From: Acididesulfobacillus acetoxydans
GTDB lineage: Bacteria; Bacillota; Desulfitobacteriia; Desulfitobacteriales; Desulfitobacteriaceae
Reading direction: 5' to 3'
Assembly: GCF_902729405.1 (NCBI RefSeq)
Contig: NZ_LR746496.1
Coordinates: forward strand, 3,658,001-3,722,000
DNA: 64,000 nucleotides
Notes under the pieces: generated by a model
What the model saw: only the letters and a program-made list of their open reading frames with translations
What the model was told of the DNA's origin: nothing
Databases searched by the model: none
Position numbers and translations under genes: made by a program
Part shown: positions 36,703 through 62,290 of the stretch, piece after piece
Position numbering within the stretch: the first letter of the stretch is position 1
Layout of the letters: each line of letters starts with the position of its first letter

Positions 36703-39162
36703 TTAGTGGATTCCCGTTTTACCGGAATCATAAAGGCCGGATACCGCCTCCAACACGGCTTGATACCTGTCCGGCTCCGCCAAAACCTTCTGAGCAAAGA
36801 GATGGGCTTGTTCGACCAGGAGTCCGTCCCGAGACAGGTCTGTCAGGCGCAGCTCCGGAAGTCCGTGCTGCCGGGTACCCATGAGTTCCCCCGGCCCGCG
36901 CAGGCGCAGATCCTCTTCCGCGATTTTAAAGCCGTCCTGGGTCCGGCACAGCACCTCCAAGCGGCGGCTTGATTTAGCCTCCGACATCAGAATGCAGTAG
37001 GACTGCTCGCTTCCCCGTCCGACCCGTCCGCGCAATTGGTGCAACTGGGCCAATCCGAACCGTTCCGCCCCTTCGATCACCATCACGGACGCGTTCGGAA
37101 CATTTACCCCGACTTCCACCACAGTGGTTGCCACCAGGATGTGAATCCCGCCCCGTTGAAACTCATGCATTACGGCTTCCTTTTCCCCGCCTTTCATGCG
37201 GCCGTGCAGGAGGGCGATCCGCTGCTGGGGAAAACGCCTTTGCAAGGCCTCCGCCCTCTCTTCAGCCGATACCAAATCCGACATCTCGGAGCCCTGCACC
37301 AGTGGGCAGACGACGTAAATTTGCCGCCCCCGGCTCATCTGTTCTTCCATAAACTTTTCCAGGCTCGGCCGGCCCCGTTCACTCAGCCGGCGCGTCAGAA
37401 CCGGTTTCCGTCCCGCGGGCATTTCATCAATCACGGAAAGCTGCAGGTCTCCGTAGAGCGTCAAAGCCAAAGTTCGCGGAATCGGGGTCGCCGTTAGGAC
37501 AAGGACGTGCGGACTTTCCCCTTTTCCTCGCAGCAAAGAGCGTTGGCGCACGCCGAAGCGGTGCTGCTCATCGGTAACCGCCAAGCCCAGACGCCGGAAG
37601 CTCACACTTTCCTGGATCAAAGCATGGGTCCCGACGACGACCTGAACCTGGCCCAGCGCGAGCCGCCTCAAAGTCTCGTCACGCAGCGAACGGCTCTGGC
37701 TGCCCAGCAGAAGGGCAATTTTCACACCTAAAGGAGTAAGGGACTTTTCCAAGGACTGATAATGCTGTTCAGCCAAAATTTCCGTCGGAGCCATCATCGC
37801 CCCCTGATAGCCTGATTCCACAGCCCGCAGCAGAGCCGCCATGGCCACCACGGTCTTGCCCGAACCCACATCACCCTGAACTAAGCGAGCCATCCCCTTC
37901 GTCCCAGCCATGTCGCGCAGAATCTCCCCGATCACCCGCTCCTGCGCTTTGGTCAAACCGAAAGGCAAGCCCGCCAGCAATCCGGCCACCATCCCGGTAT
38001 CCCTGTTCAAGGCTGGGCTCGCCGCGTCCGCCGGCCCCCGGCGCAGGAGAGCAACCGCTAACTGCAGGAAGAGAACCTCCTCCCAAACCAGGCGTGTCCT
38101 GGCCAAGGCCAGGCTCTCCGCGGACCGGGGAAAATGAATCTCGCGATAAGCCTGCGCGCGCTCCATCCACTTCTCGCCGGCCCCCGCCCCCAAAAACTCG
38201 GGAAACAAACCCTCCGTCCGGTCGACGACCTGGCGGACAATTCCCCGCAACGTTTTGGAAGACAGGCGGGCTGTTTCCGAGTACACCGGGACGATCTCAT
38301 CCCGGGCGCTTCCTTCCCCGTCCGCACTTTCAATGTCTGCGGCCAGAATTTCACAAAGATGCCTCTGACATTGAATCTTGCCCGTAACCACCACCCGGGT
38401 CCCGACCGGATACTGCCTGAGGACATAAGTCCGGTTAAACCACACGGCCTGGATAACGTGCCTCCCCTGCTCAATCCCCAGTTTGATTACCTTGATTCTT
38501 CCGGGAGAAACCTGCCCGTAGACCACCGTTCCGTAAACGCTCGCCGTCTCCCCGTCCCGCAACTCTTCAAAACTCCTGAGACGGCGATCCTCGTAGCGCC
38601 TGGGGAAATAAAGCAGTAAGTCCCGGGCCGTTTCCAGACCCAGGCCTTGCAATTGCTTCATCCGCTCCGGCCCAACCCCCTTAAGGAACTGCAAAGACGA
38701 GTCTTTGACCTTTTCCGGGAAGCCGGAAATTCCGGCCCCTTTCCCATGTCCTCCGGGGCTGAGTGCACTGGGCCGGCCGCAAACGCCCGGCCCGCCGGCC
38801 GCCGCCGGCTGCTCCTCTCCGCTCACACTCCGCTTCTCCGCCGTGAGCCGCTCCTCTCCGCTCACACTCCGCTCCTCTCCCGCCGGCCGCTGCTCTCCCG
38901 CCTCCTCCGTCAGTCCGTCTATCTCCGCCAGAAGGGCGGGAAAAGCCTCCCGCCTCTTCAGCGGACTCATATGCGCATAACGCAAGGCGATCTGCCTCAT
39001 CAGAGTCAGGTTCCGTCCGGGCACAAGCTGTTCCAGCCGGGGGAGTATACCGTTGAGGAAGACACTGAATCCGCCCAGGGCGCCCGTGTTGGTATACCCT
39101 TGTCTTTCCTCCGCCACCGCGGCTTTGCGTAAGTTCGCCAGCACCAGCCGCAGCGTATTCAT
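36703..39162 (-). CDS. recG: ATP-dependent DNA helicase RecG
   Basis: RecG reverses stalled forks and migrates branched DNA. The 819-residue protein contains the wedge domain with an OB fold (about residues 150-330). Helicase motifs I (GDVGSGKTVVAM), II as DEQH, III (LTATPIPRTLALT) and VI (QLRGRVGRGSEQSYC) follow. An extra N-terminal helical domain of about 80 residues precedes the core, as in many Clostridia and Deinococcus. Between it and the wedge lies a low-complexity linker (about 85-145) with an internal duplication, EERSVSGEE at about 96-104 and a second RSVSGEE at 111-117. It overlaps sdaAA by 4 bp. Confidence 0.97.
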   Translation of the reverse strand: MNTLRLVLANLRKAAVAEERQGYTNTGALGGFSVFLNGILPRLEQLVPGRNLTLMRQIALRYAHMSPLKRREAFPALLAEIDGLTEEAGEQRPAGEERSVSGEERLTAEKRSVSGEEQPAAAGGPGVCGRPSALSPGGHGKGAGISGFPEKVKDSSLQFLKGVGPERMKQLQGLGLETARDLLLYFPRRYEDRRLRSFEELRDGETASVYGTVVYGQVSPGRIKVIKLGIEQGRHVIQAVWFNRTYVLRQYPVGTRVVVTGKIQCQRHLCEILAADIESADGEGSARDEIVPVYSETARLSSKTLRGIVRQVVDRTEGLFPEFLGAGAGEKWMERAQAYREIHFPRSAESLALARTRLVWEEVLFLQLAVALLRRGPADAASPALNRDTGMVAGLLAGLPFGLTKAQERVIGEILRDMAGTKGMARLVQGDVGSGKTVVAMAALLRAVESGYQGAMMAPTEILAEQHYQSLEKSLTPLGVKIALLLGSQSRSLRDETLRRLALGQVQVVVGTHALIQESVSFRRLGLAVTDEQHRFGVRQRSLLRGKGESPHVLVLTATPIPRTLALTLYGDLQLSVIDEMPAGRKPVLTRRLSERGRPSLEKFMEEQMSRGRQIYVVCPLVQGSEMSDLVSAEERAEALQRRFPQQRIALLHGRMKGGEKEAVMHEFQRGGIHILVATTVVEVGVNVPNASVMVIEGAERFGLAQLHQLRGRVGRGSEQSYCILMSEAKSSRRLEVLCRTQDGFKIAEEDLRLRGPGELMGTRQHGLPELRLTDLSRDGLLVEQAHLFAQKVLAEPDRYQAVLEAVSGLYDSGKTGIH
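38812..38877. repeat. In-frame repeat in the RecG linker
   Basis: CTCTCCGCTCACACTCCGCT and close variants occur twice within recG codons 96-117, coding for two copies of a (K/E)RSVSGEE segment. The repeat keeps the reading frame. Confidence 0.7.
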
Positions 39163-56146: not shown

Positions 56147-57292
56147 TTATAAACCCAACCTCTCTCCCGCTTCCCCATGCCTGCCCAGGAAAAAATCCCG
56201 GGCCGGCATCCGGCGTTTTCCCGCCGGCTGTACTTCTTTGATTTTCAGCCACCCGTCGCCCGTCCGCACCGCCAAGCCGTCTCCTTCAATCCTCAGGACC
56301 TCGCCCGGCCAATTCGCCGGAGTCCCGAAGCCTGAGTCCCAAACCCCGGCCAAGGTCTTGCCGCTGCTTTTTTCGGGGCCGGCAGCCGGCTGTCCTCTCC
56401 CTGTTTTCTTGCTTCTGACCCTTGTGTAATTGGTCTGCGTACCGGATCGGACTCTCTCCTCCCCCGGAGAATTCCTTGCCCCGGTCTCGGTATACCGCTT
56501 CCCCGCGCTTTCCCCCGCGCTTTCCCCCGGGGATGTTTCTTCCTCCGGGGGAGAGCTTTGCCAGACTTTGAGACTCTCTCCCCGGAAAGTCGTATAAGCA
56601 CCCGGCCAGGGATTGAGACCTCTGATGAGATTGTGAATCGCCCAGGAACCGCCTGCCCAGTCAATCTTTTCATCCTTGCGGGTGAGAAGAGGCGCATAAC
56701 TCCCCGGCCCCGTCTGAGGAACCGGCCGGACAGTGCCGGCCTCGACCCCGGCTAACGTATCCAAAAGCAGGGTTGCGCCCAAACGGGCCAGTGCCTCATG
56801 TACCTCACCGCCGGCGGCCTCCGCAGAAATCGGATATTCCGCCTGTAAGAGCAGGTCTCCCGTATCCAGACCCTGATTCATAAGCATCGTGGTAACCCCG
56901 GTCACTTTCTCCCCCCGGATCACCGCCCACTGAATCGGCGCCGCGCCGCGGTAAGCCGGCAGCAGAGAGGCGTGTACATTAATACAGCCCCTGCGCGGCA
57001 AGGCGAGGATCTCAGATGAGAGGATCTGCCCGTAGGCCACCACAACGATGCCCTCCGGCGCTAAGTCACGCAGTTGAGCCACCGCCTCGGGACTTTTTAC
57101 CCGTTCCGGCTGGAACACCGGCAAACCCAGCGCCAAAGCCGCCGTTTTCACCGCGCTGGGCTTCATCAGTTGTCCCCGGCCTGCCGGGCGGTCCGGCTGA
57201 GTAAACACCCCGGCAACCTCGTACCCCGCTCCCACCGACGCCTCGAGGGAAGGAACCGCGAAATCCGGAGTCCCCATAAACACCAAACGCAT
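56147..57292 (-). CDS. fmt: Methionyl-tRNA formyltransferase
   Basis: Fmt formylates initiator Met-tRNA. From the ATG at 57292 the protein has 381 residues. The N-terminal domain shows MRLVFMGTPDFAVPSLEASV, the catalytic INVHASLLPAYRGAAPIQWA (about 104-123) and GLDTGDLLL. The C-terminal tRNA-binding OB domain is split by a low-complexity insertion at about residues 247-320 (rich in E, G, S, R, with SPGESAGESAG). This makes the protein about 60-70 residues longer than usual. def lies upstream, but 366 bp away instead of the usual tight def-fmt pair. Confidence 0.95.
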   Translation of the reverse strand: MRLVFMGTPDFAVPSLEASVGAGYEVAGVFTQPDRPAGRGQLMKPSAVKTAALALGLPVFQPERVKSPEAVAQLRDLAPEGIVVVAYGQILSSEILALPRRGCINVHASLLPAYRGAAPIQWAVIRGEKVTGVTTMLMNQGLDTGDLLLQAEYPISAEAAGGEVHEALARLGATLLLDTLAGVEAGTVRPVPQTGPGSYAPLLTRKDEKIDWAGGSWAIHNLIRGLNPWPGAYTTFRGESLKVWQSSPPEEETSPGESAGESAGKRYTETGARNSPGEERVRSGTQTNYTRVRSKKTGRGQPAAGPEKSSGKTLAGVWDSGFGTPANWPGEVLRIEGDGLAVRTGDGWLKIKEVQPAGKRRMPARDFFLGRHGEAGERLGL

Positions 57293-58174: not shown

Positions 58175-60793
58175 TCAAGCGGTGGCCATAGGATCAACCT
58201 CGATATTCAGTATTATGCCATGAGCCGCCGAGCTTTGAAAAAACTTTTCGATCCCGCCGTGGAGAAAAGCCCTTAAAATCTCGATATTTTTTCCCTTAAC
58301 CAACACCTGCCAGCGAAATTGCTTTTTCAGCCGGGGCAGGACGGCGGGTGCCGGACCAAGGACATTCAACAGTTCAGTATTCCCATTTCCGTGTTCCGGC
58401 ATTCGCCCGAACAGGGCCGTGGCCAGTTCATGCGCCCCTTTGATCACCCGCTCCTCCTCCTCCCCCTGGACAAGCACCCGTATGACGTGCGTGAAAGGGG
58501 GATAGCGGCGCTCCTTTCTGTAGCGAATTTCCTCCCAGAAAAAGCCCTCAAAATCATGAACGGATGCGTGTTGGATAGCGCGGTCCGCCGGGGTATAGGT
58601 TTGAATGACGACTTCCCCCGGTTTTTCGCTCCGTCCGGCACGCCCGGCAACTTGCGTCAGCAGTTGAAACGTCCTCTCCCTGGCCCTGAAATCCGGCATC
58701 TGCAGAGTTTGGTCAGCCGCCACGATCCCCACAAGAGTTACATTGGGAAAATCCAACCCCTTGGCCATCATCTGCGTCCCCACCAGAACCTGAGCCTCCT
58801 GCCTCCTGAAAGCCGCCAAGATCTCCTCATGGCCCTGTTCATGCACCGCATCCCAGTCCAGCCTCAAAACCCTTACCTGGGGCCATAGGCCCCGCAGTTC
58901 TTCCTCGACTCTTTGCGTCCCCAGGCCAAAGAAACGGATGTACCGGCTCCCGCACTCGGGACAGCGGTGAGGCGTTTCCTCGGTGTGATTACAATAATGA
59001 CAACGCATCACTTCGTCCTGAGTATGATAAGTGAGCGCCACATCGCAGTCGGGGCAGCGCGCCACGTAACCGCATTCCCGGCATACGACAAAAGTCGCGT
59101 AGCCCCGGCGGTTTAAAAAGAGCATGCTTTGCTCACCCCGCTCCAGCCGCTCCCGCAGCTTGGTCTGGAGGCTGAGAGAAAACAGACTGCGGTTGCCCTT
59201 AGCCAAGTCCTCCCGCATATCCACAACTTCCACGGGGGGCAAGATGCAGGATCCTATGCGTTCCCTCATCGTGAGCAGTTCGGCTTTGCCGCTCCGGGCC
59301 GCCGCATACGCCTCCAGCGAAGGTGTCGCGCTCCCCAGGAGAACCACCCCTTGACGATATTCCATCCGTTTGCGGGCAACATCCCGGGCATGATACTTGG
59401 GGTTCTCATCTTGCTTATACGCCTGGTCATGCTCCTCGTCCAAAATGATCAATTTCAGGGCCGGCAGAGGGGCAAAAACCGCCGAACGGGCCCCGATGAC
59501 CAGATGGACATTTCCCTCCAGTATCTTCTCCCAAGCCCTGGCTTTCTCCCCCGGTTTGAGCCCGGAATGGAGCACCAGCATTTGCGAACCAAAATCTGTC
59601 TTAAAATAGCGAGCCAGCTGGGCTGTCAAGGAAATCTCCGGCACCAGCAGGATCACGTCCCCGCCCCGGAGGAGAAGGTACTGAATCACCCTCCTGTACA
59701 CTTCCGTCTTCCCGCTTCCGGTCACCCCGTGCAGGAGGAGAGTGCGGGCGGCTCCTTTGCCCAGGGCCGATATAATCTCTGTTACCGCCGCTTTCTGTTC
59801 GCGGCTGAGAATTTTCTCTCCCCAAGACACCCGGAACAACTTTTCGGTTGAGGATTCCGCCTGCCCCCCGGACCCACACTCCCTTTTTTCACAATCATTC
59901 GGGAACGCCTCAGCCGGGGTGCCATCTTGAGAGATGAGCGCCTCATAAGCGCCCTCTTCAAGGAAGTTCGCAGAATCCGCACAGGCGCTTTGCCGAACGC
60001 CGCCACCCCGAAAAGCATCTGCCTCCCGAGTATCTGCCTCCCGAGTATCTGCCTCCCGAGTATCTGCCTCCCGAGTATCTGCCTCCTGAGTACCCACCCC
60101 CCGAGTATCCGCCTCCCGGGTATCGGCCTCCCGGGTATCTATCTCCCGGGTATCTATCTCCCGGGTATCGGCCTCCCGCGGTGCTTCCCGCGAAACTCCC
60201 CCGGAGGGAATCCGGGCAGACCGGGCTCCGGTTTTCCAAGCAGAAGAGAACCGGGTTTCTGTTTTCACCCAGCCCTGCCCGATCAGCTGCTTCAAGAAGT
60301 CCCCGCCGACCCGGGCTCTCTGCAGGAACGTCTTCAGGGGCAAACCCCGGCGCCGGGAGCGGCCCAGTACTTCCAGGCAGGCATAAGTTTCCGGATCGAG
60401 CCAGCGCAAAGTCTCGACATCCGGGTCTTCCCGGCCCGCCAGAGGGATTACCCACTCTTCCACCTTGCCTTTGAGCAAAGGCCAAACCGTACGCAGGCTT
60501 TGAGCCACGGAACACAGGGTCGTCTCCGCCAGCCAGCGAGCCAGCTCGATCATCTCCGCGGGCACCGCTGCCGCCGCCAAAATCTTCAAGACCGGACGCA
60601 ATTCCTTGCCCTCGGCTTCCTTGGGCAGGCGATCCGCGACCCGAACGATCAGCCCCTGCACCTGCCGGCCCTGTAAAGGAATCAAGACCCTCATCCCGGC
60701 AGCGGCCTTCATGTCATCCTGAACAATATAGTGGTAAGTTCTATCGAGACGCCGGTTGGCGACGTCCGGCATAACTTCGGCGTACCGCGTCAA
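58175..60793 (-). CDS. priA: Primosomal replication restart helicase PriA with an in-frame minisatellite
   Basis: PriA reloads the replication machinery at repaired forks. The 872-residue protein has the 3'-DNA-binding domain (about 1-105), a winged-helix part (about 125-180) and helicase motifs HGVTGSGKTEVYRR (I), DEEHDQAYKQ (II) and GSATPSLEAYAA (III). The zinc cluster has eight cysteines (CRECGYVARCPDC, CHYC, CPEC). Residues 206-260 are eleven copies of a five-residue unit, mostly R-E-A-D-T, inserted between winged helix and helicase; with flanking low-complexity sequence the protein is roughly 100 residues longer than usual. It heads the priA-def-fmt operon. Confidence 0.96.
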   Translation of the reverse strand: MTRYAEVMPDVANRRLDRTYHYIVQDDMKAAAGMRVLIPLQGRQVQGLIVRVADRLPKEAEGKELRPVLKILAAAAVPAEMIELARWLAETTLCSVAQSLRTVWPLLKGKVEEWVIPLAGREDPDVETLRWLDPETYACLEVLGRSRRRGLPLKTFLQRARVGGDFLKQLIGQGWVKTETRFSSAWKTGARSARIPSGGVSREAPREADTREIDTREIDTREADTREADTRGVGTQEADTREADTREADTREADTREADAFRGGGVRQSACADSANFLEEGAYEALISQDGTPAEAFPNDCEKRECGSGGQAESSTEKLFRVSWGEKILSREQKAAVTEIISALGKGAARTLLLHGVTGSGKTEVYRRVIQYLLLRGGDVILLVPEISLTAQLARYFKTDFGSQMLVLHSGLKPGEKARAWEKILEGNVHLVIGARSAVFAPLPALKLIILDEEHDQAYKQDENPKYHARDVARKRMEYRQGVVLLGSATPSLEAYAAARSGKAELLTMRERIGSCILPPVEVVDMREDLAKGNRSLFSLSLQTKLRERLERGEQSMLFLNRRGYATFVVCRECGYVARCPDCDVALTYHTQDEVMRCHYCNHTEETPHRCPECGSRYIRFFGLGTQRVEEELRGLWPQVRVLRLDWDAVHEQGHEEILAAFRRQEAQVLVGTQMMAKGLDFPNVTLVGIVAADQTLQMPDFRARERTFQLLTQVAGRAGRSEKPGEVVIQTYTPADRAIQHASVHDFEGFFWEEIRYRKERRYPPFTHVIRVLVQGEEEERVIKGAHELATALFGRMPEHGNGNTELLNVLGPAPAVLPRLKKQFRWQVLVKGKNIEILRAFLHGGIEKFFQSSAAHGIILNIEVDPMATA
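60014..60178. repeat. 15-bp minisatellite inside priA (11 units)
   Basis: On plus the unit is CCCGAGTATCTGCCT-like, repeated eleven times without frame change. The units at 60014-60090 are nearly identical and those to the right more diverged (GTATCGGCCT, GTATCTATCT). It codes for R-E-A-D-T, R-E-I-D-T and variants on the minus strand. Confidence 0.92.
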
Positions 60794-61184: not shown

Positions 61185-62096
61185 TTATACCCCTGCTTCG
61201 CGGCTGACTGCCGCAAAAGCGATGGACATCAGCTTACTGCGCGGCGAATCATTGCGCGAGGTCATCACGATCGGCGTCTTCGCCCCCAGGATGATCCCCG
61301 CAAACGTGGCTCCGGCAAAATAGAGCATGGACTTAATCACCGCATTTCCAACCTCAATCGTCGGCACCAGGAAAAGATCGGCGTCTCCGTTCACCCGGCT
61401 CTTGATGCCCTTATGTTTCAAGGCCGCCGCGCTGATGGCTCCGTCCAAAGCCAGGGGACCGTCCACGACAGCCCCCACGAATTCTCCCCTCTCACCCATC
61501 TCCGCCAAGGCGGCGGCATCCGTTGAGGAGACCATCTTCGCGCTCGGAACTTCGTTAGCCGATAAAGCGACAACTTTCACTTCCCCCATGCCGATACGAT
61601 GCATGCAGTCCAAGGCATTGGCGAGAATTTCCTTTTTCTGCTCCAGCGTGGGAGAAATGTTGATTCCCCCGTCCGTCAGAAAAAGAAGCCTGTTAAAACC
61701 CGGCACCGAGATAGCCGCCAGATGGGAGAGCAGCCTTCCGCTTCTCAGCCCATCCTCCGCACGCAAAACCGCCCGCAGGAAATCGGCCGTGTTCACAAGC
61801 CCTTTCATGAGAAAATGAGCCCTTCCTCTGACCACAGCGTCCACAGCCTTATGGGCAGCCGCCACCGGATCCGGCTCATCAATCAGTTCCGCTTTACCTA
61901 AATCCAACCCGATTTGCCGGGCCAAATCCTCGATCCCTACCCCGGACCCAATCAGCAGCGGATCGATCAACCCCACGGTTTGGGCCATTTTCACCGCTTC
62001 CAGCACCTGTTTATCGGCAGCCGCCGCCACGGCCACCCGCGCCCGGCCCAGGCTTTGGGCCCTTTCCAAAAGAACCTCCAACCCGGTAAACCTCAA
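61185..62096 (-). CDS. ptb: Phosphate butyryltransferase-like protein
   Basis: The 303-residue protein belongs to the phosphate acetyl/butyryl transferase family, which converts acyl-CoA to acyl-phosphate. Recognisable blocks are AHFLMKGLVNTADFLRAVL (about residues 93-111), the FLTDGGINISPTLEQK region (about 139-154) and the C-terminal GAKTPIVMTSRNDSPRSKL. The length is that of Ptb rather than of the longer Pta. Translation uses TTG behind AAGGAG, nine bases away. No butyrate kinase is next to it; ackA is 30 kb away. It may act on branched or butyryl-CoA from amino acid fermentation, in keeping with the phenylacetate-CoA ligase nearby, but that is inference. Confidence 0.88.
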   Translation of the reverse strand: MRFTGLEVLLERAQSLGRARVAVAAAADKQVLEAVKMAQTVGLIDPLLIGSGVGIEDLARQIGLDLGKAELIDEPDPVAAAHKAVDAVVRGRAHFLMKGLVNTADFLRAVLRAEDGLRSGRLLSHLAAISVPGFNRLLFLTDGGINISPTLEQKKEILANALDCMHRIGMGEVKVVALSANEVPSAKMVSSTDAAALAEMGERGEFVGAVVDGPLALDGAISAAALKHKGIKSRVNGDADLFLVPTIEVGNAVIKSMLYFAGATFAGIILGAKTPIVMTSRNDSPRSKLMSIAFAAVSREAGV

Positions 62097-62141: not shown

Positions 62142-62290
62142 TCAAACACCCTTTTCCATTGGCTCTGTTCTTTTTCAGACACCCTTTTCCTGTCGCTCTT
62201 TTCTTTTCTTTTTCAGACACCCTTTTCCTGTCGCTCTTTTCTTTTCTTTTTCAGACCACCCTTTTCCTTCGGCTCTGTTCTTTTCTTTCA
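62142..62290. repeat. Tandem repeat in the ptb leader (four units of about 34-39 bp)
   Basis: Units start at 62142, 62176, 62214 and 62252. Each reads CAGACACCCTTTTCCTGTCG then a pyrimidine-rich TCTTTTCTTTTC tail; the second and third are identical. The array lies between the -10 element and the ptb-like start, so it would be transcribed as a purine-rich leader. Confidence 0.85.

Follow-up and report, generated by a model that had tools for sequence, protein, structure and literature searches.

An in-frame 15-bp minisatellite in the predicted disordered linker of PriA in the array-rich genome of Acididesulfobacillus acetoxydans

In a 64,000-nucleotide stretch of the A. acetoxydans genome (the window), the gene for the replication restart helicase PriA contains a run of short tandem units, which raises the questions of how this array arose and what it does in the protein. 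The gene (58175..60793, minus strand; 872 amino acids with a TTG start) was identified using Pfam and NCBIfam models. Its product scored 635 bits against TIGR00595 (cut-off, 230) and 817 bits against NF004066 (cut-off, 813), contains the 3'BD, DEAD, Helicase_C, Zn-ribbon, and PriA_C domains of Pfam, and is the sole full-length PriA match on the whole 4,520,225-bp contig. The portion encoding the helicase, CRR, and C-terminal domains (58178..59809, minus strand; residues 329-872) has intact invariant motifs; the invariant nucleotide-binding residues, the DEEH motif, and the eight zinc-region cysteines of 28 aligned PriA proteins are all kept. The top Foldseek match of the predicted model was 4nl4 (E value, 2.4e-55; TM, 0.79 by target). 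By score, domains, and predicted fold, the product is thus assigned to the PriA replication restart helicases. The A. acetoxydans INE genome has been reported as 4.52 Mb with a G+C content of 53.7% (53.9% in our 400-kb sample of the present genome), and its closest genome is that of Peptococcaceae bacterium CEB3, with 89.3% amino acid identity (PMC8982180). CEB3 was the one genus mate among the genomes searched, and the best segment of the PriA alignment with it showed 90% identity.

The array (60014..60178, minus strand; residues 206-260) was called by TRF as a 15-bp period in 10.8 copies (score, 212; 60017-60178). Read in the priA frame, it consists of exactly eleven 15-bp units, the number given in the initial annotation, with zero indels. 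The units are, in order, READT, REIDT, REIDT, READT, READT, RGVGT, QEADT, three copies of READT, and READA; the formula (R/Q)-E-(A/I)-D-T given in that annotation holds for nine of the eleven and fails for unit 6 (RGVGT) and unit 11 (READA). A shortened, diverged unit of 12 bp (REAP; 60179..60190, minus strand), read directly from the sequence, precedes the array. Units 8-10 have the same DNA and units 7 and 11 are each one base off, while on the other side of the array unit 1 is identical to unit 4 and unit 2 to unit 3. These groups of identical units suggest at least two local duplications, and the DNA pattern is compatible with the recent local expansion that had been proposed from the near-identical units at one end. 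By hand count, the changes between units comprise about seven non-synonymous and three to four synonymous ones, 73% non-synonymous changes being expected without constraint; the unit sequence thus shows no sign of constraint. Because the consensus unit is stop-free in all six frames, overlapping open frames run across the array; these frames showed no sign of being genes. When 400 kb of the genome's own DNA were shuffled with a third-order Markov model, TRF called a single array in total and none with at least three copies, and chance is therefore excluded as the source of the priA array. With head-to-tail units of at least 10 bp, a period that is a multiple of three, and an intact gene, the array is an in-frame coding minisatellite. 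Two other descriptions were rejected. It is not a mobile or dispersed repeat, the tandem unit being confined to priA with two single one-mismatch matches elsewhere in the genome, and it is not hairpin-prone DNA (hairpin potential z, 0.52 and 0.30 on the two strands).

The array lies between the DNA-binding and helicase halves of PriA, as had been noted: the last strand of the winged-helix domain ends at residue 183 and the helicase begins at approximately residue 329. Linker lengths were compared by aligning the window protein to 109 loci, among them duplicates from the same genomes and numerous distant bacteria. Measured from one fixed anchor to the other, the linker comprises 152 residues in this genome, 50 in CEB3, 31-73 in other aligned family members, and 0-36 in many distant bacteria. 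The comparison of orthologues proposed in the initial annotation thus found no array at this site and far shorter linkers, and the array is therefore not a fixed ancient repeat. In CEB3 it is missing both from the protein alignment and at the DNA level, and, being absent from this and the other relatives, it is lineage-specific. No convincing single ancestral unit was found at the CEB3 site, where the best candidate over all rotations had 4 mismatches in 15. The array accounts for 55 of the 152 linker residues. At the DNA level, the priA linker of CEB3 lacks 306 bp, of which the 165-bp array explains only a part; the remaining insert (59903..60013, minus strand; residues 261-297, limits approximate) has no clear repeats and is also lacking from CEB3 in the alignments.

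In the AlphaFold2 prediction, for which 28 sequences were used, pLDDT was below 50 for residues 188-283 and 286-325 and mostly high in the domains. Array residues 206-260 had no secondary structure and a block pLDDT of about 24-31. Residues 188-325 are thus predicted to be disordered, with the domains intact, which agrees with the earlier suggestion of a charged flexible linker; the charge is read from the sequence and the disorder is a model prediction. The PriA proteins of Escherichia coli and Klebsiella (4nl4 and 6dgd) have the domains and fold of the window PriA and likewise a disordered linker joining winged helix and helicase; the window PriA differs in that its linker has 152 residues with an array. 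In E. coli PriA, W186, R187, and Y190 of this disordered linker dock on the helicase, and changing all three weakened unwinding and structure specificity (PMC8323898). In the window protein, a conserved KTETRF motif (60248..60265, minus strand; residues 177-182) directly follows the winged helix and precedes the array in the alignment. The family pattern KxExRF is well conserved at this position, and some other PriA proteins align WR- or YR-like residues there; KTETRF may be the counterpart of the W186/R187 docking motif in E. coli.

The priA array is one of many in this genome and is no priA-specific feature, a point absent from the initial annotation. Array densities were compared using one TRF setting on 400-kb samples (252 kb for G003, of the sister genus). 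At a TRF score of at least 50, the densities per 100 kb (with array counts) were 15.0 (60) in this genome, 14.8 (59) in CEB3, and 11.5 (29) in G003, compared with 3.8 (15), 3.5 (14), and 1.5 (6) in three other genomes of the family (G014, G020, and G012, respectively) and 0.2 (1) in the Markov shuffle of this genome's own sample. Arrays with at least four copies of at least 10 bp numbered 35 per Mb (14) here, 12.5 (5) in CEB3, and 11.9 (3) in G003; G014 and G020 each had 2.5 (1), and G012 and the shuffle none. Relative to G014, G020, and G012 pooled, the excess here was significant for the long arrays (binomial p = 3e-7) and for all arrays (p = 5e-15). CEB3 and G003 are draft assemblies, in which arrays may be under-counted. 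The array-rich genomes have a G+C content of 49.6-53.9% in the samples vs 41.2-45.5% in the others, a difference that is not separable from ancestry. In a PriA tree built without the linker, this genome, CEB3, and the genus of G003 and G011 form one group (support, 100/99), and the array excess may date to their common ancestor. Loss of mismatch repair or RecJ was rejected, as a simple loss, as the cause of the repeat richness: this genome has both mutS1 and recJ, which exceed the curated cut-offs in 23 and 24 of 25 genomes, respectively, the remainder being partial matches in drafts. SbcC-like matches were also found in this genome; the model cut-off was reached in none of the 25 genomes, which makes this a weak test.

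A satellite survey (Subirana and Messeguer 2019, PMC6749651) reports more than 4 satellites per Mb in only 18 bacterial species and, in its Table 1, a bacterial replicon maximum of 23 per Mb as counted with SATFIND. A SATFIND-like count with our own program, which differs from SATFIND, gave 22.5 per Mb here (9 in 400 kb); this genome would therefore rank near the top of the surveyed bacteria, with the proviso that the counting programs differ. The present arrays resemble the prokaryotic coding satellites of that survey, many of which are unique, local, and, within genes, multiples of 3 nt, and in which a few species are rich (PMC6749651).

The distribution of periods was examined in coding and intergenic arrays, which were sorted by a simple home-made hexamer gene finder, with gene-edge arrays left out (7 here and 10 in CEB3). 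In this genome (window and sample; 464 kb), the period is divisible by three in 22 of 27 coding arrays vs 16 of 41 intergenic ones, and in CEB3 (480 kb) in 24 of 26 vs 13 of 35. The pooled proportions, 46/53 and 29/76, differ strongly (Fisher p = 2.5e-8). Such a coding bias to multiples of three would follow if arrays formed at any place in the genome and selection then eliminated the frame-breakers. Besides priA, the array-bearing genes here include recG, dnaE, scpA, scpB, fmt, yloV/fakA, hypF, trmO, and accA, and those in CEB3 include pcrA, ligA, ftsH, nuoE, nuoF, and an ispH-S1 fusion. Genes for replication, repair, or segregation make up 5 of 24 array genes here (priA, recG, dnaE, scpA, and scpB; 22 of the 24 scanned) and 2 of 22 in CEB3 (pcrA and ligA; 18 of the 22 scanned), both being raw counts and no claim of enrichment. 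The dnaE gene for DNA polymerase III alpha (L137:17734-19998, own genome) has two 18-bp arrays of 5.3 and 3.8 copies (L137:18019-18248); the insert of approximately 100 residues that holds both is missing in CEB3, where its flanks abut. The N-terminal linker of recG contains a 39-bp array of 2.5 copies (38802..38898, minus strand) and is about 20 amino acids longer in CEB3, whereas the variable linker of fmt, with a 12-bp array of 2.4 copies (56501..56529, minus strand), is about 30 amino acids shorter there; linkers therefore grow and shrink in both lineages. In CEB3, pcrA and ligA adjoin, each with an in-frame array (L223:12722-12796 and L223:13854-13970).

The reading that best accounts for these results is tandem duplication in an array-rich clade combined with a tolerated, disordered PriA tether, to which, as a whole, we assign a probability of about 0.8. 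The array would have been born by local tandem duplication, as replication slipped or short repeats recombined unequally, and would have been either gained after the split from CEB3 or lost in CEB3; genomes of its clade are far richer in minisatellites than those of the other family members sampled. Slippage or recombination would make arrays everywhere and selection would purge those breaking a frame or a fold; the priA array would have been retained because a 15-bp unit leaves the frame unshifted and the PriA linker is disordered and length-tolerant. In the protein, it would lengthen the charged, flexible connection of the winged-helix domain to the helicase, without a fold of its own. The tolerated slippage put forward in the initial annotation is thus the best-fitting reading of the array, and its interpretation overall is partly supported. 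The slippage or recombination mechanism, the near-neutral effect on PriA, and continuing copy-number change are what we infer from this pattern. The end branches of the PriA tree are 0.071 for this genome and 0.019 for CEB3, and a relative-rate count gave 19 derived sites here vs 8 in CEB3 (p = 0.052, not significant). No skew was seen in def (1 derived site here vs 3 in CEB3) or fmt (14 vs 15); recG, ptb, and yloV, having no outgroups, were left out of this test. The PriA values hint at faster change here, as would be expected under relaxed or altered selection and not under strict neutrality.

Bacterial genes with in-frame tandem repeats are already known from tolA and from the survey cited above (PMC3477136 and PMC6749651). 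The tolA repeat of E. coli resembles the priA array in being tandem, in frame, and inside a bacterial gene; its copy number can vary without the protein ceasing to work, and its contraction is mostly RecA-dependent with no significant effect of mutS (PMC3477136). The two differ in that the tolA repeats have been tested and are variable among strains, whereas the priA array is in a helicase gene, is predicted to be disordered, and is known from one genome. No paper on PriA repeats or minisatellites in these bacteria was found among the literature matches listed, and the term 'tandem repeat' is absent from the accessible text of the INE genome paper (PMC8982180).

It is also conceivable that linker length sets the orientation of the winged-helix domain relative to the helicase on forks, copy number being a selected dial akin to contingency-type variation. 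The docking residues W186, R187, and Y190 lie in the same linker of E. coli PriA and their alteration spoils structure-specific unwinding (PMC8323898), tolA copy number alters stress tolerance in E. coli (PMC3477136), and the longer tether would part the conserved KxExRF, which precedes the array, from the helicase. Against such tuning, CEB3 and the other relatives do without the array, unrelated genes hold arrays of the same kind, and the unit sequence appears unconstrained; we consider it unlikely. A further proposal, which we regard as quite improbable, is that replication or repair has been heritably altered in the clade, so that minisatellites form unusually often for a bacterium. Its targets would include the linkers of DnaE, PriA, and RecG here and of PcrA and LigA in CEB3, so that the replisome's errors would rebuild its own linkers, which may in turn affect how repeats form.

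E and R residues spaced at i to i+4, as in the READT repeats, can favour a helix, and the array might accordingly fold into a stable structure of specific function, such as a charged helix. The AlphaFold2 model has no helix in residues 206-260 at their low pLDDT, acidic residues outnumber basic ones, and threonine occurs in nearly every unit, all of which make such a fold very improbable. Assemblies often go wrong at tandem repeats. A false expansion or a broken priA is nevertheless the least probable reading, and an assembly artefact is unlikely, given that the frame is unbroken over 872 amino acids with conserved ends, that the units are not all identical and hence placeable, and that the INE assembly, if it is the same genome, is described as PacBio-based with Illumina MiSeq correction by paired 250-bp reads, which exceed the 165-bp array (PMC8982180).

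The array is thus real and an ordinary-looking in-frame minisatellite in a probably tolerant linker, and the clade-wide repeat excess is the more interesting lead. Taken alone, the priA array exemplifies the tolerance of a key helicase for a long insertion of repeats within a disordered linker. The array excess in this genome, CEB3, and the sister genus provides a small clade for asking what controls the birth of bacterial minisatellites, and natural length variants could show how linker length matters in PriA, DnaE, RecG, PcrA, and LigA.

Several other arrays were observed. An intergenic 38-bp array of 3.3 copies (62164-62288) lies upstream of the gene at 61185-62096 (minus strand). Elsewhere in this genome, a 42-bp array of 11.6 copies with 95% identity (L135:7831-8317) lies in a gene for a 630-amino acid protein with a weak SMC-like match, and a 17-bp array of 8.6 copies (L126:6274-6419) lies in a predicted 214-amino acid frame without a family match, which may be no gene because 17 bp is not a multiple of three. 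A TrmO-like protein carries a histidine-rich 18-bp array of 8.6 copies (HPHDHEHP...; L129:3949-4097), which, judging from its composition, possibly binds metal.
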